Shown: one piece after another, positions 1-19,745 of the stretch
How the letters are laid out: every line of letters starts with the position of its first letter
Position numbering within the stretch: the stretch's first letter is position 1
DNA from: Ktedonobacteria bacterium
GTDB taxonomy: Bacteria; Chloroflexota; Ktedonobacteria; Ktedonobacterales; JACDGC01
NCBI GenBank assembly: GCA_027459705.1
Contig: DAIDHM010000074.1
Location: forward strand, 1-33,834
Direction of reading: 5' to 3'
DNA length: 33,834 nt
The notes under the pieces: generated by a model
What the model saw: only the letters and a program-made list of their open reading frames with translations
Told to the model about the DNA's origin: nothing
Databases searched by the model: none
Program-made: the position numbers and the translations under genes

Positions 1-336
1 TAATAAGATCGCATGCGTACAGGCGGCGGCAATCTGTTGCGATTCCAGCGATGGAATGCCGCCCGCATCCACTAAAAGGGGAAGGTGACGTTGATCTATG
101 AAATGGCTCACCGAGTCAGCAAACGCCTTCGTCCAGGGGCCACGAACACGGGAGCGCAATTCGCGCACCGCCGTCTCGGTGGCCTCATGTGACCAATCAC
201 CTTCGCCATCCGGACTGGCCCGCAGGGCATAGTGTGGCACATCGCGCGTACGTAAAACCTTGCTTAACCGATAGAGTAGCGTGCTCTTGCCCGCATGCGG
301 CGGCCCACCGATGAAGATCGCAGCAAACTCTGACAT
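1..336 (-). CDS. P-loop NTPase, Csx3-AAA-like, partial (runs off the left edge)
   Basis: Only the first 112 residues are present; the frame is open to base 1. The protein starts MSEFAAIFIGGPPHAGKSTL, with a Walker A motif GGPPHAGKST at residues 10-19. A conserved-looking stretch follows at residues 42-50 (PDGEGDWSH), and a hydrophobic strand LPLLVDAGG at residues 85-93 could be a Walker B equivalent. From memory of the family, this pattern resembles the AAA-type ATPase domain found fused to or next to the ring nuclease Csx3/Crn3 in type III CRISPR loci; I cannot verify this and no Csx3 domain is visible in the portion present. A purine-rich AAAGAGAA lies about 6 nt before the ATG. The gene is divergent from the CARF-HTH gene, with 43 nt between the start codons, so the two may share regulation. 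ATP binding is well supported; the CRISPR link is inference. Confidence 0.7.
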   Translation of the reverse strand, partial: MSEFAAIFIGGPPHAGKSTLLYRLSKVLRTRDVPHYALRASPDGEGDWSHEATETAVRELRSRVRGPWTKAFADSVSHFIDQRHLPLLVDAGGIPSLESQQIAAACTHAILL

Positions 337-379
337 GATGATTCTCTTTCGTTCTTTGCACAGTATGGAGGCTTCGCGA

Positions 380-1183
380 ATGCCCGGAACTGATCAGGCC
401 GTCGCGGTCATGACCGTCGGCGGTCAACCGCAGGTCGTCACTCTCCTTTTGGATGCTCTGTATGCGCGTAAGGAGCGCATCACGACCCTCTACCTGATAC
501 ATCTGGCCTTGATTTCACCCCGCTATCAGGAAGCCCTTTCCAAGATCCGCGCGGAATGGCGAGATCAGCACTACGGCGATTATCCTTGCGAACTCCGCAC
601 GATCCTCATCCGCGATCGCGGTGAACCCGTCAGCGCTCTCGACACGGAAGAGGCGATCGACGCCGTCCGCGACACATTCCATGACTTGTTCAGTTCATTG
701 AAAGAGCACGATGCGCAGATCCATCTCGGTCTGAGCGGTGGCCCCCGCCTCCTCGGGCATATGGCCAGCGCCATGGCGCGACAACATTTCAAGCATATCG
801 ATCGTATCTGGCACCTGCATTCTTCGGATCAGATTCGCGAGCAGACGCGCAATGGCGCCATCCTGCATCTGCCATCCACCGCTGAGGTCCGCTTGTTACG
901 GGTCCCCTTCAATCCACGCGATCACATCCCGCTGTCCACCGAACAACGCGATCAGCAACAACGCTGTCGCCAGGCGCTCCACGAGATGACTACCCGTCAG
1001 CGCGAGGTCTTGCGCGCCTTCGTCCGCGGTCTGACACCCCAGGAAGTGGCGAACGAGTTGAGCATCACCGTCAAGGTCGTCGACAGCCACAAGACCGCGA
1101 TCTTTCAGATCTGTGATACCTACTGGGAACATTGCGATCATCATTATCACTGGCTGAAGACCACGTTCGCCCCATTTTTCTAG
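380..1183 (+). CDS. CARF domain protein with C-terminal LuxR-type HTH, putative cOA-responsive regulator
   Basis: 267 residues. The N-terminal domain (about 5-180) looks like a CARF domain of the NE0113 type. Loop motif 1 is TVGGQPQVVT at residues 12-21, and loop motif 2 is LSGGPRLLG at 118-126; these are the two loops that line the cyclic oligoadenylate pocket in CARF proteins. Residues 202-247 read as a LuxR/GerE-type helix-turn-helix (TTRQREVLRAFVRG, then LTPQEVANELSITVKVVDSH). A ligand-gated transcription factor analogous to Csa3 is therefore likely; NE0113-like CARF domains may alternatively degrade the ligand as ring nucleases. The start at 380 is chosen because GGAGG sits 8 nt upstream and the first beta strand follows at once; in-frame ATGs at 335 and 365 lack this. 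It lies directly upstream of the cmr operon on the same strand, separated by 169 nt that contain a dyad. Confidence 0.85.
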   Translation: MPGTDQAVAVMTVGGQPQVVTLLLDALYARKERITTLYLIHLALISPRYQEALSKIRAEWRDQHYGDYPCELRTILIRDRGEPVSALDTEEAIDAVRDTFHDLFSSLKEHDAQIHLGLSGGPRLLGHMASAMARQHFKHIDRIWHLHSSDQIREQTRNGAILHLPSTAEVRLLRVPFNPRDHIPLSTEQRDQQQRCRQALHEMTTRQREVLRAFVRGLTPQEVANELSITVKVVDSHKTAIFQICDTYWEHCDHHYHWLKTTFAPFF

Positions 1184-1303: not shown

Positions 1304-1352
1304 AAAGTTGTTTGCACAAACAGCAAGCACAACGGAATGGAGTGGTAGTCAA

Positions 1353-3188
1353 ATGCGGTATCTGTTTGCGGCTTCGCTTGGTCCCGTACAGGGTTTTATC
1401 TATATGGCGCGCGCCACCCGTGATTTCTGGTTTGGGTCCTGGTTGTTGAGTGAAGTGAGCAAAGCAGGGGCGAAATCGCTCCTTGAAAATCAAGCAACGT
1501 TGATTTTTCCATCACCGCAGTCAGATCTGCATAAAGACTCCGCGACGAACGTTGCTAACAAAATTATTGCGGTAGTCACCGCGGATTCGTTCGCCGCAGT
1601 GGAATCGCTGGCGAAAGAGATGAGTGCGGCAATGCGCGAGCGGCTCATGGATCGCTGGCAAGATATCTTGCGCCAGCTCAAGGATGCGCCGCTTGATGGC
1701 GACGCGGCCCTCGACCAGATACGCGATCTGCTGGAGATCACCTGGTGCGCGGTAGAATTTCCCGACCTCAAGGAATATGCTATGCGCCGCCAGGAGGTGG
1801 AAGCATTGCTGGCGGCCCGGAAGACCACGCGCACCTATGCGGCAGCGACGTGGGGCAAGGCCGGTCGCGCGAAATCCTCGCTGGACGGGCAACGTGAATC
1901 CGTCCTACCCAAAGGCAGTAAGGGGGAAAGACATCGCTGGACTTATGGCGCCCGGCGTGGAGAAGAGCTGTCGGCGATTGATCTGTTGAAGCGTCTGGGA
2001 CGCCGGGAGAGTGGGCAGCAATACTTTCTGACCACCACGCATATGGCCGTGCTGCCGATTATCCATCGGTTTGGCGCGGAGCAAACAGGGCCAGCCGCCG
2101 AGGCCTGGCACAACTATATCAGCACGTTGCGCGAAATCGCGCCGCGCTTACTGAATGATGAACAGGTGGCGAGCGAATATGCCAGTGAGAGTTTTTTCGG
2201 CAATGCCGATGGCACGCTATTCTTCGCGGATCGCGTCGTCGATGAGCTCCCAGATGGCACCGCCCCTGCCGCCATGGAGCAGCACGCCCACGACATTCGC
2301 ACGAAGCTGGGCGCGTTCTACAATGCCGCGAAGATCGTGCAGCCCAATCCGTATTATGCGATCCTCGTCGCCGATGGCGATGGGATGGGTACGTGTATCA
2401 GTGCATTAGCGCGAGCAGGCTATGAGCGCCATAGCCAATTATCCCAGGCGCTGGACGACTTTGCCACCGCGGCGCGGACGATCATACGCGAACATGAGGG
2501 CGCACCCATCTTCACCGGGGGCGATGATGTGGTGGCGTTACTGCCACTCCACACCGCGTTATCGTGCGCAGCCCAGTTAGCAACGGGGTTCAGGACAGCG
2601 ATGCAGCCCTTCATGACGAATGTAGCAGCTCCACCGACGCTCTCGGCGGGCATCGGCATCAGTCACTATCTGACCCCGTTGGTCGATGCGATGGCGCTGG
2701 CTCGGACCGCGGAGAGCGCCGCCAAAGGAATGCAGGACAAAAACGCCCTCGCCGTGACGGTCAGCAAGCGGAGCGGCGGGGAGACGACGGTGCGCGGCCA
2801 TTGGGGAGAGATCGATAGCCGCATCGCCACTTTCATAGCATGGCATCAGTGCAATCTGTTCCCCGATGGCGCGGCATACGAGTTGCGCGCCTTGAGCCGC
2901 CAATTTCCCCTGCCACGAGAAGGGCAAGACAGGGAGCAGATCGATCGACTGCGTCGTGTGGAAGCCTGGCGCATCCTGCGGCGCAAGGCGATCGCCGCCG
3001 GGGAACGCGCCAATGTCCTGAATGAGTTGCGCATGATATTGCGCATTACCCCCGAAGACGCGCTCCTGCCATTCGCAGGTGATGCCGTGGATATCGACGC
3101 GTTGGCGGATATGCTGATCGTTGCCCGACTTTTCGCGCAGGTCTATGACCAGGCGGGGATCACCCCCGCACAGAAGGTGATGGCATGA
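1353..3188 (+). CDS. cas10: Type III-B Cas10 (Cmr2), GGDD cyclase, no HD domain
   Basis: 611 residues. Large subunit of the Cmr effector, expected to make cyclic oligoadenylate when the complex binds target RNA. The N-terminus has the Cmr2 signature GPVQGFIYMARATRDFWFGS near residues 10-29. The palm regions carry DGDGMG at 341-346 and the catalytic GGDD at 389-392, followed by strand VVALLPL, so the cyclase looks intact. There is no HD nuclease domain: the protein begins directly at the first palm-associated region and only 15 further codons are open upstream. The complex should therefore lack Cas10 DNase activity. The start at 1353 is preferred over an upstream ATG at 1308 because GGAG lies about 10 nt upstream and homologous sequence starts there. 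The stop overlaps the cmr3 start by 4 bases. Confidence 0.95.
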   Translation: MRYLFAASLGPVQGFIYMARATRDFWFGSWLLSEVSKAGAKSLLENQATLIFPSPQSDLHKDSATNVANKIIAVVTADSFAAVESLAKEMSAAMRERLMDRWQDILRQLKDAPLDGDAALDQIRDLLEITWCAVEFPDLKEYAMRRQEVEALLAARKTTRTYAAATWGKAGRAKSSLDGQRESVLPKGSKGERHRWTYGARRGEELSAIDLLKRLGRRESGQQYFLTTTHMAVLPIIHRFGAEQTGPAAEAWHNYISTLREIAPRLLNDEQVASEYASESFFGNADGTLFFADRVVDELPDGTAPAAMEQHAHDIRTKLGAFYNAAKIVQPNPYYAILVADGDGMGTCISALARAGYERHSQLSQALDDFATAARTIIREHEGAPIFTGGDDVVALLPLHTALSCAAQLATGFRTAMQPFMTNVAAPPTLSAGIGISHYLTPLVDAMALARTAESAAKGMQDKNALAVTVSKRSGGETTVRGHWGEIDSRIATFIAWHQCNLFPDGAAYELRALSRQFPLPREGQDREQIDRLRRVEAWRILRRKAIAAGERANVLNELRMILRITPEDALLPFAGDAVDIDALADMLIVARLFAQVYDQAGITPAQKVMA

Positions 3189-4432
3189 CGAACTGGCTCA
3201 TTGAACCCCAGGATCCGGTGATTGTCCGCGATGGCCGACCTTTCAGCGCGACCCCGGGCGCGCGGGCCGATTCGCTGCCCTTTCCCTACCCTGGCACCGT
3301 AGCGGGTTTGCTGCGGACCCTGGCTGGGCAGAACGATCAGGGCGTCTTCGACCCGGCCCGGGCCGACGATGTATTGAAAATCGCGCTGCGCGGCCCATTG
3401 CTGGCGGAACTGCGGGCGGATGGGACGCCGCACAGGTATTACGCCCCCGCTCCGCGCGATGCGCTCTGGGTGCGATCCAACTCGATGGATCTGTTTCGCC
3501 GACTTACGCCGCTCGCGCTGCCCAAGGGCGCGATCACAGATCTGCCAGACGACTTGCTGCCAGTAGGTATGTCAGATTCTATCGAGGCGAAACCAGCGAA
3601 AGATGCCCCAGCGTTCTGGCGGTGGGAACGGTTTCAACAGTGGTTAACGTCACCTGGTGATTTCAGCACCAAGACGCCCGCCTTGGCGGAGATCGGCATA
3701 TCCGCTTTGCCGCGGGATGAACGCGTGCATATCGCCATCGATCGCACCACCCGCACCGCCAGCGAGGGCGCGCTCTTCATGACGACCGGCCTCAGTTTTA
3801 CCCAGCAGGCATCACGCGCGGCGTCGCTCAACCAGACTCGGCGCCTCGCGCTGGTCGCCACCACCGTGGGCGACGCGGCAGCGGCGCAAACCCGGCTCGG
3901 CGCGTTGGGTGGCGAACGGCGCACCGTCACAGTGCGTCCACTCGCGGATCCCTTACCAGGCCTCCCGGATACATTAGTGGAGCACATCGTCAAAGACCGC
4001 CATTGCCGCCTGATCTTGCTGACCCCCGCGTACTTCGCGGCGGGGTATCGGCCAGATTGGTTGCTGCAAACACACCATGACGTGACCCCACAGCTCGTCG
4101 CGTTGACGATCGACCGACCCCAGGTGGTCTCGGGTTGGGACTATCATGAGCACATGATCCGACCAGCGCGGCGCCTGGCACCCGCGGGCACCGTGCTGTT
4201 CTTGCGCCTGGCTGGTGCATCCGGGAGAGAACCATCCGCCGCAGCCATAGCCAACTGGGTGCAGCGGATGTGGCTCCAGCCGGTCAGCGATGACTACGTG
4301 GGCAGTAGCGATCAGCAGGCATCTTACACGGATATCCGCACAGATGCCGAACAGTGGAGGCGCGACGGTTATGGTCTCGCCGCGCTCGGCACCTGGGATG
4401 GCAACCCGCAAACAATGAAAGTGGGGCTATGA
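3185..4432 (+). CDS. cmr3: Type III-B RAMP protein Cmr3
   Basis: 415 residues. Cmr3 sits next to Cas10 at the foot of the Cmr complex and contacts the crRNA 5' handle. The N-terminal block IEPQDPVIVRDGRPFSA followed by SLPFPYPGTVAGLLRT (residues about 6-45) is the Cmr3 hallmark, and the length is typical. The start codon overlaps the cas10 stop (ATGA) and the stop overlaps the cmr1 start in the same way, indicating translational coupling. The family and operon position agree, so the call is firm although the C-terminal half has no motif I can name. Confidence 0.93.
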   Translation: MTNWLIEPQDPVIVRDGRPFSATPGARADSLPFPYPGTVAGLLRTLAGQNDQGVFDPARADDVLKIALRGPLLAELRADGTPHRYYAPAPRDALWVRSNSMDLFRRLTPLALPKGAITDLPDDLLPVGMSDSIEAKPAKDAPAFWRWERFQQWLTSPGDFSTKTPALAEIGISALPRDERVHIAIDRTTRTASEGALFMTTGLSFTQQASRAASLNQTRRLALVATTVGDAAAAQTRLGALGGERRTVTVRPLADPLPGLPDTLVEHIVKDRHCRLILLTPAYFAAGYRPDWLLQTHHDVTPQLVALTIDRPQVVSGWDYHEHMIRPARRLAPAGTVLFLRLAGASGREPSAAAIANWVQRMWLQPVSDDYVGSSDQQASYTDIRTDAEQWRRDGYGLAALGTWDGNPQTMKVGL

Positions 4433-5757
4433 AGATGCGCCAACCACCACCCAGTGATCCACCGGCGATCCAGGCGGGATCGTCGAATCTGATCACCCAG
4501 ACCCGTGAGTATGCGGTGATCACGCCGCTCTTCGGCGGCGGCGTCACGCCGATGGCCGCCGACCCGATCACGGTCGTCCGGGGCAGCGAGATCCGCGGCC
4601 AAATGCGCTTCTGGTGGCGCGCCACCCGTGGCGGCCGCTATGACGGCAACCTCGCCGCAATGAAGCGCGACGAGGACCTGATCTTCGGCACAGCCGCCAG
4701 CTATGACAAAGACGGCAATGTGCAGGGCGGACCCTCAGTGGTGCAGATCGCGACGAAGGTCCTCAATAAGGGGATGGAGGTCGCGCCATTCAGAGTAGAG
4801 CCTGCGCGGAATGGTCGAGGCCTGCAGGTTCGCCATGAGGAACAATCAGGTGTTCCCGCATATGCAGCCTTTCCCCTGCAACCACAGAAAAATGAACTCA
4901 CCTCGGGACATGTCATACTCAGGAAAGTTCGCCAGGGTGTCCGGTTTGCCATGACCATCACCTTCCCCACGGAACTCCAGGGGTCCCATGGACGCATTCC
5001 CATCGAGCAGGATCTCATGGCGACCCTCTGGGCATGGGAAACGTTCGGTGGATTGGGAGGGCGCACACGTCGCGGATTTGGGGCGCTGAAACCGTTAAAG
5101 ATCCAACAAACCCCGGTCAAGTTACCTACATCGGCTGATATAGAAGATGCTCTCTATAACGCGCTTGATGCGAATGTGTTGGATGGAGAATGGCCACCAT
5201 CCGTACCCCATCTCGCCAGAAGCGATGCTCGCCAACTAGCATTTATGCGTGAAGATCGGGACGAGGCGAGCAGATGCTGGAGTCTGCAAACAGACGCCTA
5301 CATGAAGTTTCGTCAAATACGCCAGCAGAGCAGAGTACCTGGCCTAAATGCCTGGCCAGAACCCGACGCAATTCGGCAGATCTCCAAAAAGCCCACGCGT
5401 CGCGAACGGGTCATCGCCAAGTTTCCCCGTGCGGTATTAGGTCTGCCAATTATTTTCCATTTCAAGGATCATGATGAACCCGGTGATTCGACAGTGCAGG
5501 GGATCAATCATGATCGGATGGCGAGCAGACTTATCCTCCGCCCCGGCGCATGCGACGATAACCTGTACGTTGGCATTGCGCTCGTGCTCGACGGACCGAG
5601 CCTGCCGCCAGGGGGAGTACGCATCAAAGAACGCCAGAATTCGCCGACGTTACAGACAGAGTTGACCGAGGACGAGGCCAGCACCGTTGACGTGCTGGCT
5701 GGCAAGCCGGACATTCTCCAGGCATTTCTTGATTATTTTGAGGAGTATCATTCATGA
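4429..5757 (+). CDS. cmr1: Type III-B RAMP protein Cmr1
   Basis: 442 residues. Cmr1 caps the crRNA 3' end of the Cmr backbone. The signature EIRGQMRFWWRA is at residues 54-65, preceded by the first RAMP strand YAVITPLFGGG. A second RAMP motif, GGLGGRTRRGFGAL, lies in the middle of the protein and is the glycine-rich loop typical of Cmr1. The start at 4429 overlaps the cmr3 stop by 4 bases; a longer in-frame start at 4354 would overlap cmr3 by about 80 bases and lacks homologous sequence. The 3' end overlaps cmr4 by 4 bases. Confidence 0.95.
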   Translation: MKMRQPPPSDPPAIQAGSSNLITQTREYAVITPLFGGGVTPMAADPITVVRGSEIRGQMRFWWRATRGGRYDGNLAAMKRDEDLIFGTAASYDKDGNVQGGPSVVQIATKVLNKGMEVAPFRVEPARNGRGLQVRHEEQSGVPAYAAFPLQPQKNELTSGHVILRKVRQGVRFAMTITFPTELQGSHGRIPIEQDLMATLWAWETFGGLGGRTRRGFGALKPLKIQQTPVKLPTSADIEDALYNALDANVLDGEWPPSVPHLARSDARQLAFMREDRDEASRCWSLQTDAYMKFRQIRQQSRVPGLNAWPEPDAIRQISKKPTRRERVIAKFPRAVLGLPIIFHFKDHDEPGDSTVQGINHDRMASRLILRPGACDDNLYVGIALVLDGPSLPPGGVRIKERQNSPTLQTELTEDEASTVDVLAGKPDILQAFLDYFEEYHS

Positions 5758-6623
5758 ACGCTCGCCAGATCTTCATCCACGCGCGGACCCCACTCCATGC
5801 GGGCACTGGCCAGGGGACAGATGTCATCGATCTGCCGATTGCCCGTGAACAGGCGACGGGCATCCCCTATCTCCCTGGCTCCTCACTCAAAGGCGCGCTG
5901 CGCGATACCTGCCCGAGCCAACAGCGCACGGCGATCTTTGGGCCAGAGACGGCGAACGCCAGCGACCAGGCTGGTGCAGTCCAGATCACCGATCTGCGTT
6001 TGGTGCTGTTGCCGGTGCGCAGCCTGGCAGGCACCTTCGCCTATGTCACCTCGCCATATATCCTGCGCCGCTGCGCCCGCGACGCCGCGGATTGTGGCGC
6101 GCAGCCGCCCACAGTGCCAGTGGTCGCGGGATTGGAGACGCTACTGGCCACAGAAAAGACAGCGCTCCAGGCTACCACGCAGGGGGACGCCAAAGCCTAT
6201 CTGGAAGATTTGGATCTGACCATCACAAAGCAGTCAGAGGTAACGACATGGGCTGAATGGTTAGGGAAGCAGATCTTTGCCGGGAAGAAGGATGACCTCC
6301 AGATGCTGACAGAGCGGCTGGCTATCGTCCACGATGACGTGATGACCTTCTTGCTAACGACAGCTTTGCAGGTGACGGCGCGCATCCGCCTGGAGGAGAA
6401 GTCCAAGACCGTCGCGAAAGGCGGCCTCTGGTATGAGGAAGCGTTGCCCGCCGAAGCGGTGCTGAGTGGTTTGCTGGTGGCGATGCCGAACGCGAAGACC
6501 GGCATGGATGACAAAGCCATCTTCGCCGCCATCGCCGCGTTGGTGGGCAAACCAATGCAACTGGGCGGCAAAGCAACGGTCGGGCGCGGTCTCTGCCAGA
6601 TCTCCCTGGCACAGGAGGCGTGA
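5754..6623 (+). CDS. cmr4: Type III-B RAMP protein Cmr4, target RNA endonuclease
   Basis: 289 residues. Cmr4 forms the helical backbone and cuts target RNA at 6-nt intervals in characterised systems. The N-terminus reads PLHAGTGQGTDVIDLPIARE (residues 13-32). Asp26 in the IDLP motif matches the catalytic aspartate of Cmr4 (Asp26 in the Pyrococcus protein), so RNA cleavage should be intact. IPYLPGSSLKGALRD follows, and the C-terminal glycine-rich loop is LGGKATVGRGLCQI. The start overlaps the cmr1 stop (ATGA). With no HD domain on Cas10, this subunit is the only predicted nuclease of the complex itself. Confidence 0.96.
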   Translation: MNARQIFIHARTPLHAGTGQGTDVIDLPIAREQATGIPYLPGSSLKGALRDTCPSQQRTAIFGPETANASDQAGAVQITDLRLVLLPVRSLAGTFAYVTSPYILRRCARDAADCGAQPPTVPVVAGLETLLATEKTALQATTQGDAKAYLEDLDLTITKQSEVTTWAEWLGKQIFAGKKDDLQMLTERLAIVHDDVMTFLLTTALQVTARIRLEEKSKTVAKGGLWYEEALPAEAVLSGLLVAMPNAKTGMDDKAIFAAIAALVGKPMQLGGKATVGRGLCQISLAQEA

Positions 6624-6627
6624 GGCG

Positions 6628-7047
6628 ATGGGCATGCAGACACGCGATCAAATCCTGGCAACGGCAGCCTTTCAGCGAGTCGAGGCTATCCTCAATGGCA
6701 AACCACCAGAATATCGTAAGAAATATGGCAGCATGGCGCATACCTTGCCGGTGCTGATCCGCACGGCGGGCCTCGCACAGGCCCTGGCCTTTGTCGAGGC
6801 CCGTGGTGATGAGGCTCAGCGGCAATTGATGGATGACCTGGCGCGTACCCTCACATTTACAGATGGGAACGCGCTGGCAAATCAGAGCCGCAAGGCGCCC
6901 TTGCGCGAATATATGATCTTGTCGCAGCGGGCCATCGCCGCGTTGCTGTGGTTCAAACGTTTCGCGCAATCCGTGCTCAATGTGGACGCCGCGACCGAGG
7001 ATGACGCAGAAGACGCGACGCCTGCGCGTGGAGGTGAAACCCAATGA
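6628..7047 (+). CDS. cmr5: Type III-B small subunit Cmr5
   Basis: 139 residues, the usual size for the all-helical small subunit of the Cmr complex. It starts MGMQTRDQILATAAFQRVEA and contains KYGSMAHTLPVLIRTAGLAQALAF, a run characteristic of Cmr5 (positions about 33-56). REYMILSQRAIAALLWFKRF is the conserved final helix. The last 20 residues are acidic and probably disordered. AGGAGG ends about 11 nt before the ATG at 6628, 4 nt after the cmr4 stop. A longer frame from 6466 exists but lies inside cmr4 and is not needed. The stop overlaps cmr6 by 4 bases. Confidence 0.93.
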   Translation: MGMQTRDQILATAAFQRVEAILNGKPPEYRKKYGSMAHTLPVLIRTAGLAQALAFVEARGDEAQRQLMDDLARTLTFTDGNALANQSRKAPLREYMILSQRAIAALLWFKRFAQSVLNVDAATEDDAEDATPARGGETQ

Positions 7048-7919
7048 CCCAGCAACGACCCACACCGGGACCGACAGCCAACGGCGGACGAATCGAGGCG
7101 CGCCGCCAGGCATTGCAGACAGTAAAAATCTCGCCCACAACCACACATCCCGGCCTGTGGTTTGACCGCTATCTTGATCACCAATGGCAAAAAGGCCGAC
7201 CATTTGGCACGAATGGCGAGTCGCCATTGGCTGCCCATGTGGATGAGACGACGCATGTTGGCCGTATGCTGCAATCTCAGCAGGTAAGCCAGTTTGGCAA
7301 AAATTATCAGCGTTGGTATCAACGCTGGGAGGAGTCGTGCAAAGATGCCAACGCGCGGACCCGCATGGCCCAGGCCACTGGACGATTGGTCCTGGGTCTG
7401 GGCGGCGAGAGTGTCATTGAGACCGGAATTGCCATCCACCACACCTACGGCGTCCCATACCTGCCCGGCAGCGCCCTCAAGGGGCTGGCCGCGCACTATG
7501 CGCGGAACTCGCTGAATGCAGCGTGGGGGACCTGGGAGATCACCAAAGGGAAACCACAATTCATGCCAGCCGATGCTTATATCACGATGTTCGGCAACCT
7601 AGAAGCAGCGGGGTACGTCACCTTCTTTGATGCGCTACCCCATCCGAGTAGCGCGGTCGATGGGCGGTTCTTGCATGCCGATGTTCTGACCGTGCACCAT
7701 CCGGATTATTATGCCAACAACGGCACTCCACCCGCGGATTGGGATAGTCCCAATCCCGTATCGTTCCTGAGCGCGACCGGGAACTATTGCATCCCAATTG
7801 CTGGCCCACCACTATGGCGCGATCGCGCCTTCGAGATCCTGCGCCTGGCGCTGGCCGAACTGGGCATCGGCGCCAAGACATCGTCTGGCTACGGACGTAT
7901 GGAGTTATCACAAACCTAG
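7044..7919 (+). CDS. cmr6: Type III-B RAMP protein Cmr6
   Basis: 291 residues. Cmr6 lies at the crRNA 3' end of the backbone next to Cmr1. The conserved core is LVLGLGGESVIETGIAIHH followed by YGVPYLPGSALKGLAAHYAR (about residues 115-155), the standard Cmr6 signature. A C-terminal glycine-rich segment LGIGAKTSSGYGRMEL (about 274-289) is the RAMP G-loop. The roughly 45-residue N-terminal extension looks low in structure. Its start overlaps the cmr5 stop, and 21 nt separate it from the CARF effector downstream, so all seven genes should be one transcript. Confidence 0.94.
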   Translation: MTQQRPTPGPTANGGRIEARRQALQTVKISPTTTHPGLWFDRYLDHQWQKGRPFGTNGESPLAAHVDETTHVGRMLQSQQVSQFGKNYQRWYQRWEESCKDANARTRMAQATGRLVLGLGGESVIETGIAIHHTYGVPYLPGSALKGLAAHYARNSLNAAWGTWEITKGKPQFMPADAYITMFGNLEAAGYVTFFDALPHPSSAVDGRFLHADVLTVHHPDYYANNGTPPADWDSPNPVSFLSATGNYCIPIAGPPLWRDRAFEILRLALAELGIGAKTSSGYGRMELSQT

Positions 7920-7940
7920 CGCAGAAGGATGATGTGCATT

Positions 7941-9083
7941 ATGCCAGTTTCCAATCATAGCCGTCTGATCGTCTCTACGGTTGGCACCAGTCTGCTGACC
8001 AACGCCGCCAACGACAATGCGCCGGATCGCAAGCGGCTGAACGACCTCAGCAATGCCAAGGTACTGACCGGCGAAGACGAGGAACTTGTCGTGCGTTATG
8101 TCGATCGCGCCGCAGCGACCCTCGCCACCGACAATCTCGCGGATGTTCGTCGAGCCAGCGCTGAACTCAATGGCCTGCTGACGCTGGCCAGGGAAGAATC
8201 ATCTACCAACACGCTGGATCAGCATATGTTGATTACGACTGACACCGCCTTAGGACGGCGATGCGCTGAGCTCATTGCCGAATATATGCAGGCCCACGAG
8301 ATGTCCGTGGTGGGTACACTTGTTCCAGGCGAACTCACCACCGCGACCCGCGCCGGTTATCAGGAAGGCATTCGCAATCTCGTCAAGCAGTGCGAAGAGA
8401 CCTTTCCGGGGTACCAACAGGCGGGTTACGCGCTGGTCTTCAATCTCGTCGGTGGCTTCAAATCACTCCAGGGCTATATGACCACACTAGGGATGATCTA
8501 TGGCGCGGAGAGTGTGTATCTTTTCGAGGGCAAGGGAGCCGAATTGCTCCACATCCCACCCCTGCCGATCGTCGTCGATGATCAGGTCCTCATCCAACAC
8601 GCTGTGCCACTGGCCATGATGGTGGATGGCAGAGAGATGATTCCCGCTGAGTTGGTCGCGGGTATTTCGCAAGTGCTCGTCGAAGCGGACGCAGAGTCAG
8701 CGTGTGCCTCGGCCTGGGGCGAGGTGCTCTGGGGGCGCATCCGCCAGAAAATCTATCGCGAAAGCCTCCTGGATTTTCCCCGCTTGCAATATGCGAAATC
8801 CTTTGAACGTGATTTCCAAGCTGCGACCCCAGAACAGCGCATTGAATTGCAGACAAAACTGGCCCGTGTGTCGGCGCTGCTCTTGGCCCATGATGGCGAT
8901 CGCGCTCCGCTCCGTGCCGATGGCGGATTGTTGTATGAGACCTATCGCGATCGCCCTTCCGATGGCAGCCAGATTGACCATTTTCGCATCTCTCAAGGCG
9001 ATCGCGTCTCCTGCATCTGGCGTGAGGGTGAACTTCATCTGCGCCATTTTGGTGCACGCAATCAGGTGAATGGAAACCCCTGA
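7941..9083 (+). CDS. CARF-RelE-like CRISPR effector, Cami1-like
   Basis: 380 residues. The N-terminal 230 residues form an APE2256-type CARF domain: STVGTSLLTN at 12-21 (ligand loop 1) and FNLVGGFKSLQGY at 167-179 (ligand loop 2), then SVYLFEG at 191-197. The last 100 residues (281-380) have the layout of a RelE/HigB mRNA interferase: helical SFERDF...RIELQTKLARVSAL, then strands IDHFRISQGDRVSCIWREGE and LHLRHFGAR. CARF-RelE proteins (Cami1) are known cA4-activated ribonucleases that stop translation. Candidate catalytic basic residues are His347, Arg349, Arg355 and Arg361, unconfirmed. The start at 7941 is chosen because AAGGA lies 11 nt upstream; ATGs at 7929 and 7932 are too near that site. 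As last gene of the cmr operon it is the likely toxic output. Confidence 0.85.
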   Translation: MPVSNHSRLIVSTVGTSLLTNAANDNAPDRKRLNDLSNAKVLTGEDEELVVRYVDRAAATLATDNLADVRRASAELNGLLTLAREESSTNTLDQHMLITTDTALGRRCAELIAEYMQAHEMSVVGTLVPGELTTATRAGYQEGIRNLVKQCEETFPGYQQAGYALVFNLVGGFKSLQGYMTTLGMIYGAESVYLFEGKGAELLHIPPLPIVVDDQVLIQHAVPLAMMVDGREMIPAELVAGISQVLVEADAESACASAWGEVLWGRIRQKIYRESLLDFPRLQYAKSFERDFQAATPEQRIELQTKLARVSALLLAHDGDRAPLRADGGLLYETYRDRPSDGSQIDHFRISQGDRVSCIWREGELHLRHFGARNQVNGNP

Positions 9084-15860: not shown

Positions 15861-16982
15861 CTAATAGTCGAGCATCGCTTGCAGAGCTTTTTCCGATTGC
15901 TTGCTAAGGGGGATCAGGGTCGCCTCCGGGTCATCCAGCTGCACGCTGTAGCTGTTGCGCGTGAACTGGATGACGGCGCGGATATGCTGGAGGTTCACCA
16001 GGTAGGCACGGTGTGCTTTGAAAAATCCGCGCGGCACCAGTCGCGTCTCGAGTTCCTGCAAGGTCAAATTGGTCATGGCCTCTTCGGCAACAGTGCGCAG
16101 ATACGTCTTGCCATCACGACTCGTGGCATAGAGGATTTCAGCGGGATCAAAAAGTACGATACGGTCGTCCTTGCGAGCCGGTACTTTGAAGAGACTGAGG
16201 CGCGCGGTCGACTCAATGGCGGGTGGTGCCGCGCTGGCGGCGGCGCCTTGCTCAGTCACCAGCGTCATGAGATCGGCATTGATGACCGCAGGGTGATCCT
16301 GCGACGCGGGTGATGTGGTCGCTGGGGTAGTCGCCCCAGATTCCTCGGCGAGGAGTGGACCGATAAGACGGCCATCCTCCAACAGAAAAAGACGATGGGC
16401 GAAGCGGCTACACCAGGTCAGATCCTCGTCGATGATCAGTACCGCCACATTGGCGGTCGCCAAATCTTCAATGATCTGGCGCATCAGCGTCTGCGTCGGC
16501 AAATCAGTCCGCGCGATCGGCCGCTCAAGGAGCACCAGACCAGGCTTAGCCAGCAGCGCACGCGCGAAAGCCAATCGCCGTTGCTGGGCGGAAGTCAAGG
16601 TTTTGACACGGACAGCGGCCTGATCTTGTAAACCAACTTCACTCAGCAAGCCCCAGACATGAGCGACTGGGAGGTCGCGCGCGAAAGCGATGAGTTCCAG
16701 GTTTTCCCAGACAGTCTGTCGATCGTAGAGCAGATCTTCCGCGAAGAGAACACCCAGTTGCTGGCGCGCAGCCAGGGATCCTGCATCCTGATCTCCAATG
16801 GTGATTTTTCCCCCACTCAGTGCGATCTCGCCACACACCGCCTGTGTCAGCATCGTGAGCGCGCTACCGATCGATCCCACGATTGCGACAATTTCGCCGG
16901 ATCCAACCTCCAATTGTTCCACATCCAGGATGACCTGATCCTTGACCAATTTGCGCGCGCGCGTGATCCGGAGCATACCCAT
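15861..16982 (-). CDS. Degenerate ABC ATPase-LytTR fusion transcription regulator
   Basis: 373 residues. Residues 1-235 have the layout of an ABC ATPase but with broken catalytic motifs: the Walker A is GSIGSALT (36-43, the Lys replaced by Ala), the Walker B ends LLERP (Asp/Glu pair altered), and the signature is LTSAQQRR (129-136). ATP hydrolysis is unlikely. A linker rich in Ala, Pro and Thr follows. Residues about 275-373 are a LytTR DNA-binding domain (KTYLRTVAEEAMTNLTLQEL, FFKAHRAYLVNLQHIRAV). Such fusions occur next to ABC transporters and probably sense or bind the transporter's own ATPase. It is divergent from an ABC operon. The start at 16982 is chosen because a likely promoter lies between it and the upstream ATG at 17135. 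Confidence 0.85.
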   Translation of the reverse strand: MGMLRITRARKLVKDQVILDVEQLEVGSGEIVAIVGSIGSALTMLTQAVCGEIALSGGKITIGDQDAGSLAARQQLGVLFAEDLLYDRQTVWENLELIAFARDLPVAHVWGLLSEVGLQDQAAVRVKTLTSAQQRRLAFARALLAKPGLVLLERPIARTDLPTQTLMRQIIEDLATANVAVLIIDEDLTWCSRFAHRLFLLEDGRLIGPLLAEESGATTPATTSPASQDHPAVINADLMTLVTEQGAAASAAPPAIESTARLSLFKVPARKDDRIVLFDPAEILYATSRDGKTYLRTVAEEAMTNLTLQELETRLVPRGFFKAHRAYLVNLQHIRAVIQFTRNSYSVQLDDPEATLIPLSKQSEKALQAMLDY

Positions 16983-17058
16983 GTTCCCCGCTAGCACAGG
17001 ATTTTCCTGCTTGCTCAGGCCAGGAGCATGCCCGATGCCCCGTCGCCAGGATGCTGGG

Positions 17059-17067
17059 ATTGTAGCA
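17059..17067 (-). promoter_or_regulatory. Extended -10 promoter for the ABC-LytTR gene
   Basis: Read on the minus strand the bases are TGCTACAAT: an extended -10 (TGn) followed by TACAAT, 5 of 6 consensus matches. No good -35 is present. Transcription would begin near 17052, about 70 nt before the chosen start codon. Confidence 0.45.
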
Positions 17068-17157
17068 CACTCATCCCCCCAAACTGTACGGTCAGCGATG
17101 TGTTGGTGCTCCGCACAACGGCAGATCCGCACCATTCAGCGATGGTGCAACGCATCA

Positions 17158-17199
17158 TTCACCCCAGGAAATACGCCGTTCATCGCTGGAAATGCGCCA
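17158..17199. promoter_or_regulatory. 21-bp-period direct repeat, candidate LytTR binding site
   Basis: TTCACCCCAGGAAATACGCC (from 17158) and TTCATCGCTGGAAATGCGCC (from 17179) agree at 16 of 20 positions and are offset by exactly 21 bp, or two helical turns. LytTR proteins are known to bind pairs of direct repeats with this offset. The second copy ends 2 bp before the -35-like box of the ABC operon, the normal place for an activator. The nearest LytTR gene is the divergent neighbour. Confidence 0.55.
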
Positions 17200-17200
17200 C

Positions 17201-17230
17201 ATGACCAAAGAATATCGCGCAAGGGATAAT
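17201..17230 (+). promoter_or_regulatory. Candidate promoter of the ABC transporter operon
   Basis: ATGACC (17201-17206, 4 of 6 matches) and GATAAT (17225-17230, 5 of 6) are spaced by 18 bp. The weak -35 fits an activated promoter and abuts the direct repeat upstream. Predicted start is near 17237, leaving a leader of about 75 nt. Confidence 0.45.
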
Positions 17231-17312
17231 GGCATGGTACAGTCTCGGTGCGGTGGAGAATGATCGGCCCGTGACCTACCCGCCGCCAGCTAGCACCAGG
17301 AGGCAGTAAGAA

Positions 17313-18236
17313 ATGTCGATTCAGGACACAGGTAGCGTACCGACAGTGGAACCTGCGCCACCTCACCTCCACATGGCAGATGCCGCCATCAGCGCTCATG
17401 CCCTCCGGCGCCGTTTCAAAGCAACCATTGCGGTCGATGGTATTGATCTGCGGGTTGAGCGCGGCACCATCTTTGGATTGCTCGGGCCAAATGGCGCCGG
17501 CAAGACGACCATCATCCGTATGTTGACCGGGCAGATTGTGCCGACCAGTGGCACTGCGACCGTGGGTGGCTTCGACGTGGTACGCGATCGTGAGCAATTG
17601 AAACCTTTGATTGGGGTGGTCTTCGAGGATCAGAATTTGTATGATCGGCTCTCTGGTCGTCAAAACCTGGAATTCGCCCGCTGGTTGTACGCCATACCGA
17701 AGCGCCGCATCGATGAGGTGCTGGACCTGGTGGAATTGCGCGATCGGGCACGCGATCCCGTCCAGGCCTATTCCAACGGTATGCGTCAACGCTTGATGAT
17801 CGCGCGAGCATTACTCCACGAACCGCGCATTCTGTTCCTGGATGAGCCAAGCCGCGGGCTGGACCCCATCGCGGCGCGCCAGATCCGCCAGACCATACAG
17901 CACCTGCGCGACACCGGCATGACGATCCTGCTCACGACACATCTGATGGATGAGGCGGATCACCTCTGCCAGCGGGTCGCCTTCATCGTCGCGGGCACGA
18001 TCGTCGCCAATGATACGCCGCGCGCTCTGAAACTCGCGCATAGCACGCCCGTCGTGGAGGTGACCATGGCGGACGAAGAAGACGGATTGCGTGAGGTCAC
18101 CCTGAATCTGCGCGACGCCGGAGATCAGCAGCGGTTAGCGACCTGGATCGCGGCGGATGCGGTCAGATCGATGCATACACGCGAAGCCACCCTCGAAGAA
18201 GTTTTCATCGCCACGGCTGGCGTCCGCCCGGCGTGA
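17313..18236 (+). CDS. ABC transporter ATP-binding protein (ABC-2 type exporter)
   Basis: 307 residues. All ATPase motifs are intact: Walker A GPNGAGKTT at 58-66, signature YSNGMRQR at 153-160, Walker B ILFLDEP at 173-179, and H-loop His210 in TTHLMDEAD. The signature SNGMRQR is typical of the DrrA/CcmA/NatA group that pairs with ABC-2 membrane proteins. The first 28 residues are a variable extension. AGGAGG lies 9 nt before the ATG, which supports the long start. The permease follows after 16 nt. The substrate is unknown: antibiotic, lipid or ion export are all possible. Confidence 0.93.
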   Translation: MSIQDTGSVPTVEPAPPHLHMADAAISAHALRRRFKATIAVDGIDLRVERGTIFGLLGPNGAGKTTIIRMLTGQIVPTSGTATVGGFDVVRDREQLKPLIGVVFEDQNLYDRLSGRQNLEFARWLYAIPKRRIDEVLDLVELRDRARDPVQAYSNGMRQRLMIARALLHEPRILFLDEPSRGLDPIAARQIRQTIQHLRDTGMTILLTTHLMDEADHLCQRVAFIVAGTIVANDTPRALKLAHSTPVVEVTMADEEDGLREVTLNLRDAGDQQRLATWIAADAVRSMHTREATLEEVFIATAGVRPA

Positions 18237-18252
18237 CAGAGAGGAAAGCCAC

Positions 18253-19368
18253 ATGCATCCACGTATGATCCTGGCCATCGCGCGCAAAGACGCCCTGGAT
18301 CTGCTGATCAACAAGACCACCCTGGTCATGCTCATGACGCCGATTATTCTGGCGGCATTGTTCGCGTTCATCGGCACCATCCTGGGGCCCAGTAGCGCAT
18401 CGATCCTGGTCTATAATCCCGACAATTCACCGTTGGCGCGGATTGTTGGATCAACGTACACCAACCCAACGTACGTAAACGCGCCATCAGCCAGTGCCGT
18501 CGAGGCCGCGTTTGGCAGCGATGGCGCGCGACATTCCAGCCCGTATGATCTCGGCATCGTGATCCCGGTTGGCTTCGAAGCGGCGGTACGTGCGGGCGAT
18601 CAACCTCTGGTGCAGGTCTATATCAATGGGGATAAGAATGCATTGCAGACTACAACCTACATGACAGCCATTGTCACCAATTACGCGCGACATATCGCCG
18701 CCCCTGCCGATCCAGTTCAGGTCAGTACCGTCACCATCAATCCTCAGACCAGCGCTACCCCCCAACATACCGTGACGACATTCTATGCCCTCGCGGCCGC
18801 CATGTCCTCACTCTTCATTGGCTTAACGCTGGTTTCCAATATGTTGGTGGAGGAACGAGAACGCAAGACCATGCGCATGCTGCTGATCTCACCCGCGTCC
18901 TATGCCGATATTGTTATCGGCAAAGCGATGATCGCGCTGGTGTACCAGTTCATGCTTGCGATCGTCGCCCTGGCGATCACCGGTGGATTTCAGGGCCAGG
19001 TGCCGTTGACGTTGCTCTTTGTGCTGCTGGGGAGTCTCTTTTCGCTGTCGTTGGGGATGCTCGCTGGCGGCCTCCTCCAGACCACCAGCGCCACGGGTGC
19101 CTTGAGTGGCATCGTCGGATTCATCTTCATCGTGCCGACGTTCTTCCTGGCACCTTTCATTGCGGCACCGAATAATGTCGTCGTCGTCCTCATCAAAGCA
19201 CTGCCAACGTATTACATCGGCGAAGGTATCTATCAAGCGCTCATTGCGAGCACAACCCCGCTCACACTGGCTCGCGATCTCGGCGTCGTCCTCGGTAGCA
19301 TCGCCCTGCTGGTCGCGCTGGCGGTCTGGGCTTTGCGACGTCAGGCATCGGTCATCGCGACGGGGTAG
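18253..19368 (+). CDS. ABC-2 family transporter permease
   Basis: 371 residues. One membrane helix near the N-terminus (LVMLMTPIILAALFAFIGTI) is followed by an extracytoplasmic region of about 140 residues rich in Thr, Asn and Pro, then five hydrophobic segments in the C-terminal half, including LLFVLLGSLFSLSLGMLAGG and GIVGFIFIVPTFFLAPFIAA. This is the NatB/YhaP-like ABC-2 layout. The cytoplasmic motif EERERKTMRMLLISP after the second helix is the conserved coupling loop of the family. GAGAGGAAAG lies about 5 nt before the start at 18253; an in-frame ATG inside the ATPase gene is not needed. It forms a two-gene operon with the ATPase. Confidence 0.92.
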   Translation: MHPRMILAIARKDALDLLINKTTLVMLMTPIILAALFAFIGTILGPSSASILVYNPDNSPLARIVGSTYTNPTYVNAPSASAVEAAFGSDGARHSSPYDLGIVIPVGFEAAVRAGDQPLVQVYINGDKNALQTTTYMTAIVTNYARHIAAPADPVQVSTVTINPQTSATPQHTVTTFYALAAAMSSLFIGLTLVSNMLVEERERKTMRMLLISPASYADIVIGKAMIALVYQFMLAIVALAITGGFQGQVPLTLLFVLLGSLFSLSLGMLAGGLLQTTSATGALSGIVGFIFIVPTFFLAPFIAAPNNVVVVLIKALPTYYIGEGIYQALIASTTPLTLARDLGVVLGSIALLVALAVWALRRQASVIATG

Positions 19369-19487: not shown

Positions 19488-19745
19488 ATGATTCCACGAT
19501 TGAGCTTCATCATCCTGTTGGGCGTCGGCGCCCTGCTGTTCAGTTTCGGGCTGGCGGATTTTTTCTTAGCTGGTGGATGGTCTGCCACGGGCATTGGGAC
19601 GGGCCATGCCGGGACGCCGTTCGGCATGGTGTCGGTACTCCTGATGGGGTGGGGACTCATACTCGCACTGGCGGCGGTCATGGCAATTTGGCTCGTACGA
19701 TTCAATCGACCGACACAGGACCATCCTGCCCACCCCAAAGTCTAA
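19488..19745 (+). CDS. Small two-helix membrane protein, unknown function
   Basis: 85 residues with two clear hydrophobic segments, FIILLGVGALLFSFGLADFFL (about 7-27) and VSVLLMGWGLILALAAVMAIWL (about 48-69), joined by a Gly/Thr-rich loop and ending in a short polar tail. I do not recognise the family. A purine-rich AAAGGCG precedes the ATG by about 8 nt. It lies 119 nt after the ABC permease and 77 nt before coaE, so its transcription unit is unclear; the 119-nt gap contains no obvious promoter. Confidence 0.6.
   Translation: MIPRLSFIILLGVGALLFSFGLADFFLAGGWSATGIGTGHAGTPFGMVSVLLMGWGLILALAAVMAIWLVRFNRPTQDHPAHPKV

Follow-up and report, generated by a model that had tools for sequence, protein, structure and literature searches.

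What does the DNA between a divergently encoded ABC-LytTR regulator and an ABC exporter operon of a Ktedonobacteria bacterium control, and through which element? The locus lies in the window (the whole stretch of 33,834 nucleotides analysed here), which belongs to an assembly of 245 contigs that is 95% complete. A repeat region is flanked by a minus-strand open reading frame (ORF) with ABC and LytTR domains and by a plus-strand ABC ATPase-permease pair. The regulator (15861-16985, minus strand; PF00005 and PF04397) comprises an N-terminal ABC-ATPase-like part, a linker modelled with low confidence and a C-terminal LytTR domain. The latter is the only PF04397 match among all contigs of this genome (72.8 bits, cut-off 22.6) and has one PDB sequence match, 3d6w (E 2.7e-9). 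On the plus strand follow the exporter ATPase (17313-18236; PF00005) and an ABC-2 type permease (18253-19368; PF12698, matched on the ORF 18157-19368), so that a LytTR protein is indeed divergently encoded beside the exporter operon, as the initial annotation had proposed. The regulator's neighbours are this ATPase-permease pair and a gene for a TIM-barrel protein, on the opposite strand; no inhibitor-like gene was found with the regulator, and on its strand it is the divergent exporter that precedes it. Although the regulator ORF can be extended to 17135, its start is likely at 16985, because uncut orthologs align from residues 2-5 of that reading (the matches of L047, L048 and L011 begin later). 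Elsewhere in the window, an 85-residue ORF after the permease (19488-19745, plus strand) has no match in Pfam or NCBIfam at E 0.001. A single protein with a Cas_NE0113 domain directly followed by a LuxR-type (GerE) helix-turn-helix (281-1183, plus strand) heads a type III-B (Cmr) gene set at 1308-9083 (plus strand), which comprises Cas10/Cmr2, Cmr3, RAMP proteins and a Cas_APE2256 protein.

The intergenic region had been described as holding a two-copy repeat, identical at 16 of 20 positions with an exact 21-bp period, and recomputation reproduces both coordinates and identity: TTCACCCCAGGAAATACGCC at 17158-17177 and TTCATCGCTGGAAATGCGCC at 17179-17198 agree at 16/20 positions (80%), 21 bp from start to start. 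When the intergenic region was shuffled with its dinucleotide content kept, an equal or better pair with a spacing of exactly 21 bp turned up in 1 of 3000 trials, and in 3 of 3000 when spacings of 18-24 bp were admitted. Among 103 window tiles of 327 bp, one has such a 21-bp pair, namely tile 17005-17331, which holds the repeat itself. A similarity of 16/20 taken alone is not overwhelming, and it could be read as a product of chance within the intergenic region, given that 10 of 3000 shuffles contain one at spacings of 12-40 bp. Against that reading stand the conservation found in orthologs, the recurrence of a box array and its promoter geometry across genera, and a score of the window that, with the window left out of the matrix, lies far above shuffles; we regard chance as scarcely credible.

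The repeat is conserved in orthologous intergenic regions, where the initial annotation had suggested looking. The intergenic regions of regulator orthologs carry direct repeats of CNCCATTCANC at 21-bp steps, and in relatives up to five such boxes, one per 20-22 bp, precede the exporter promoter. An array of this kind lies between regulator and exporter in 14 of 18 scanned regulator loci, a count that includes the window and several close relatives and that we group into seven clades, and it recurs at two further exporter operons. Both copies of the originally described repeat are present, but they form a slice of this longer array in a different register: the segment 17158-17198 (plus strand) takes in the latter half of box 3, all of box 4 with a spacer on either side of it, and four bases at the start of the box 5 position. 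We take the unit to be CNCCATTCANC rather than TTCANCNCNGGAAATNCGCC, because the ortholog arrays conserve CNCCATTCANC; the best match of TTCANCNCNGGAAATNCGCC in the intergenic region of any relative reaches only 12 of 16 specified bases, and this unit was rejected.

A box consists of the 9-mer NCCANTYAN plus about 12 bp, and the boxes were aligned with guidance by eye before the matrix was constructed. In leave-one-clade-out scoring, five boxes at the regulator-exporter intergenic region reach 34.8 to 48.9 in 13 of the 14 arrays; the array at L037 has 11.7 for five boxes and 27.8 for three. No second-best place in the 14 array loci exceeds 15.8 for five boxes; 17 further ABC loci score at most 7.2, and loci picked elsewhere in the relatives by a two-box pattern up to 19.0 (L059). 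This two-box pattern, allowing two mismatches or fewer, has matches in 40 of 41 genomes, 123 in total versus 32 for a reversed-pattern control whose dinucleotide content differs; 15 of the 123 fall in the arrays described here, and two of the others lie in the window's genome (C139 and C190). Given the unlike dinucleotide content of the control, the excess speaks neither for nor against a wider regulon. No clear array was found in the remaining four scanned regulator loci (L035, L036, L038 and L018). L018, from the window's family, has a degenerate array, scoring 15.0 with three boxes and 1.9 with five, and was dropped as a supporting case on its five-box score. L038, which scores 10.2, was dropped as well; here the array is degenerate, the permease is kept, and an OrfB_IS605 transposase gene adjoins the regulator and replaces the exporter ATPase of relatives. 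This transposase (1191-2531 of L038, minus strand) carries a Cas12f1-like TNB domain.

In the window, single boxes were scored with a matrix built from other clades alone. Boxes 2 (CACCATTCAGC, 17130-17140, score 12.0), 3 (CATCATTCACC, 17153-17163, score 8.9) and 4 (CGCCGTTCATC, 17174-17184, score 8.2) are clear, and two weak boxes lie upstream in phase with them: box 1 (CTCCGCACAAC, 17109-17119, score 2.5) and, 23 bp before it, GTACGGTCAGC (17086-17096, score 5.1); all are on the plus strand. The best five-box run, from 17086 to 17174, includes this outermost box and scores 34.8 with a leave-window-out matrix, versus at most 11.7 for five boxes in 1000 shuffles; the next best five-box place on either strand of the window scores 6.4. 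Boxes 1-5 as numbered (17109-17195) sum to 29.3. The box 5 position itself (CGCCACATGAC, 17195-17205, plus strand) is in phase and hardly matches the matrix (score -1.4), so that the last clear box of the window lies one step further from the -35 position than in most relatives. Judged by these matches, the promoter-proximal box of the window is either decayed or read differently. Steps between boxes are 20-23 bp, and 9-bp direct repeats with 11-13 bp separation, as given in the available part of PMC6193735, are found in the arrays; in the window, box 3 starts 23 bp after box 2, a step outside that range.

The distance from the array to the exporter promoter is likewise conserved. An extended -10 element, TGGTACAGT, lies at 17235-17243 (hexamer 17238-17243, plus strand), and across the 16 arrays the best extended -10 downstream of box 5 reads TGKTACAGT in 13, the others being GATTATAGT, AGGTACAGT and TGTTAGAGT. 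Counted from the first base of box 5, it begins at 43 bp in 15 arrays and at 44 bp in one. An assumed 17-bp spacer sets the -35 position of the window at 17215-17220 (plus strand), where the sequence is a non-consensus TCGCGC; TAGCGC stands there in 9 of the 16 arrays. The hexamer 17 bp upstream agrees with TTGACA at no more than two of six positions in 13 arrays and at four in three, and this poor match suggests a promoter that needs help. Because of the 43-bp spacing and the assumed spacer, a gap of 10 bp separates the end of the box 5 9-mer from the -35 position in 15 of 16 arrays. The 10-bp gap to the -35 that is usual for LytTR operators, as far as the published account available to us goes, is accordingly found in the arrays, with a very weak box of the window at that place. 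A weak -35 box had been reported right beside the repeat. Hexamers ATGACC and GATAAT do exist there, but the conserved element TGnTACAGT lies 13 bp further downstream, and the promoter ATGACC-18-GATAAT was discarded, since it differs from what relatives conserve.

Placement of the repeats upstream of the -35 position fits an activator, as had been supposed from the window's sequence, and we consider it likely that the array is an activator operator of the exporter operon, predicted to bind the only LytTR protein detected in the genome. Repression would be the opposite sign: sitting beside or on top of the -35 position, the ABC-LytTR protein would keep the exporter promoter blocked until its release by a ligand. 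The step that follows box 5 does fall on the -35 position, though in the window this place scores -16.8 against the box matrix, and CoxC, a LytTR protein, represses from three repeats that overlap the -35 (available part of PMC11347149), a precedent that makes the sign of regulation less certain. However, the 10-bp gap seen in 15 of 16 arrays is the spacing of activating LytTR systems in the accessible portion of PMC6193735, and a -35 hexamer with at most two TTGACA positions in 13 of 16 arrays suggests, as noted, a promoter in need of help. Repression therefore seems to us improbable, and activation the better description of the predicted operator.

Since the array lies between divergent promoters, it might also mainly serve the regulator's own promoter, the exporter being incidental. 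A probable extended -10 of the regulator gene, TGCTACAAT, can be placed at 17059-17067 (minus strand) from its sequence and its recurrence in relatives, several of which carry ATTGTAGCA or ATTATACAGG on the plus strand at the same side. PMC6193735, in the part available, presents autoregulation as central to LytTR regulatory systems. Two observations oppose the reading as autoregulation. The distance from the array to the -10 is fixed on the exporter side, and in the congeneric species G030 and G037 regulator and exporter reside on different contigs. There, arrays precede the exporter operons (L083 and L084, never used in the matrix; scores 33.7 and 44.3), and none was found at the regulator loci, where the best five-box score anywhere is 7.5 (L035) and 3.7 (L036). 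Mere autoregulation is thus very unlikely. A third separation is seen in G020, where the exporter ortholog at L093 has 62% identity, the genome has no PF04397 match and the array is absent (best five-box score 2.5), although a missed LytTR gene is possible because this assembly is 91% complete; the assemblies of G020, G030 and G037 are all multi-contig and not fully complete. Genome comparison links the array to the exporter rather than to the regulator in G030 and G037, and shows it absent from one genome without a LytTR match.

The two partners also keep company. Counting exporters at no less than 49% identity over nearly the whole length, 12 of 41 genomes have both exporter and regulator, one the exporter only, two the regulator only and 26 neither (Fisher p 1.4e-7, with kinship among genomes ignored). 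In 21 genomes searched for LytTR domains, each of the 14 positive ones has a single match. Regulator orthologs occur across the Ktedonobacteria, including Thermogemmatispora, Ktedonobacter, Ktedonospora and Thermosporothrix (41 genomes plus a scan of named genomes). In a class-wide search the LytTR part was matched in 21 of 47 genomes, in one by no more than a 62-residue stretch with a stop; this match (L141, G025:C358:3802-3987) is perhaps a decayed regulator gene. Where the parts are listed separately, identity to orthologs is 60-80% for the LytTR part and 33-46% for the ABC part.

The sensor half of the regulator departs from an active ABC ATPase. L047 (match from residue 57) and L048 (cut by a contig end) were excluded from the regulator alignments, the intergenic region of L047 being used nonetheless. 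The Q-loop Gln, the signature GGQ and the H-loop His are absent in all 17 aligned regulators, which accordingly lack the marks of an active ABC ATPase; the catalytic Glu occurs in 7 of the 17, and the Walker A Lys in 16, with Leu instead in the window protein. The exporter ATPase keeps Walker A, the Q-loop Gln, Walker B DEP and the H-loop His, with SNGM instead of SGGQ as signature. A model of the regulator (17 sequences; mean pLDDT 75.9, whole-model pTM 0.57) displays an ABC fold for residues 1-210 (pLDDT 81-95), values below 50 for residues 213-278, and a LytTR-like C-terminal part (pLDDT about 63-84). The best PDB match of the ABC domain in Foldseek is LptB with ATP (6mbn_A, E 2.9e-21, 214 columns). 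The ABC half is probably not an ATPase; since hydrolysis motifs are missing from an ABC fold, it likely serves for binding without hydrolysis or for docking of a partner.

On the basis of these comparisons, we propose that the divergently encoded ABC-LytTR protein would bind cooperatively to boxes set at two-helical-turn steps on one face of the DNA and, once bound, would recruit RNA polymerase. In relatives these boxes stop 10 bp short of the -35 position, and the promoter has an extended -10 and no TTGACA-like -35. BldC, which belongs to another family, is described as forming cooperative multimers on direct repeats (PMC5859096, available part). The ABC-like domain, devoid of hydrolysis motifs, may sense a nucleotide or the state of the exporter. 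Self-contained control of the exporter by the divergent LytTR protein, as first suggested for this locus, is supported by the array in orthologous loci, with number of copies, register and promoter corrected. More speculatively, the ABC domain might act as a decoy motor: hydrolysis-dead, it would dock on the cognate exporter, or bind ATP without turnover, so that exporter occupancy or energy state frees the LytTR domains for cooperative assembly on the array. We hold this to be rather unlikely as a specific mechanism; if true, it would amount to direct sensing of transporter work by a fused pseudo-ATPase, with neither a kinase nor a membrane inhibitor. The activator model gives a Ktedonobacteria ABC exporter a defined candidate operator, a promoter and a single candidate regulator, and draws attention to a conserved regulator in which an ABC domain devoid of hydrolysis motifs forms the sensor half. 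One LytTR match per positive genome, together with the natural separations, makes for a clean system in which to study pseudo-ATPase control of a transcription factor; it also suits asking what extra LytTR boxes do.

ABC-LytTR fusions are known from the literature. A search for LytTR with Ktedonobacter retrieved no paper, and one for LytTR with ABC, fusion or repeats no title or abstract describing this system, subscription papers lying mostly outside its scope. The fusion itself is not new, because proteins encoded on Priestia plasmids share both domains and the partner genes: P. megaterium WP_034655952.1, whose alignment spans 97% of the query (29.3% identity), and P. aryabhattai WP_099331387.1 both combine ABC_tran and LytTR, and genes for an ABC ATPase and a permease come after theirs. 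In the Priestia modules all genes run in one direction, the regulator first and the exporter genes 195 bp further downstream, whereas the arrangement here is divergent. One 12-mer pair (10/12) at 21 bp before the exporter genes of one module (L142) is too weak to count, and at the same cut-off no 12-mer pair was found in the other (L143). On one P. megaterium plasmid (L145, 4001-5106) the annotation splits the ABC and LytTR halves into two adjacent genes; a plasmid of nearly its length and gene order has one fused ABC-LytTR gene. Matches H4-H7 outside the phylum are composites of two pieces, to which in H6 the adjacent exporter ATPase gene contributes, so their coverage was not used, and the Subdoligranulum locus (L144), which comes without gene annotation, was represented by open frames only.

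Published LytTR operators, as far as the available parts of the sources go, usually have two or three boxes, and their box spacing and promoter distance match those found here. The RcoM and CoxC operators have three LytTR repeats (PMC11347149); like the present array, they exceed two direct repeats, which follow one another at about two helical turns, and serve a one-component LytTR regulator. They differ in sequence (TTCNNGCA and TTNNNGCN), in being three in number and in regulating CO oxidation genes, and CoxC is a repressor with an MHYT sensor domain. Also close are the LytTR regulatory systems (LRS) portrayed in the accessible part of PMC6193735, whose operators are 9-bp direct repeats, mostly with 12-bp spacers (for example ACCTCTTAG-12 bp-ACCACTTAA), strongly biased to a position 10 bp upstream of the -35. 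Repeat length, spacer and gap are thus alike in the LRS, of which HdrRM of Streptococcus mutans is an example, and the hdrRM promoter shares the extended -10 with the exporter promoter described here; the CCTCTTA of hdrRM also occurs in box 4 of five of six Thermogemmatispora-group arrays, and some LRS are likewise linked to ABC transporter genes. In the LRS, however, a soluble LytTR protein is held by a membrane inhibitor of the same operon, a pairing not found at our locus, where LytTR is fused to an ABC-like domain; and two boxes in the LRS compare with up to five conserved here.
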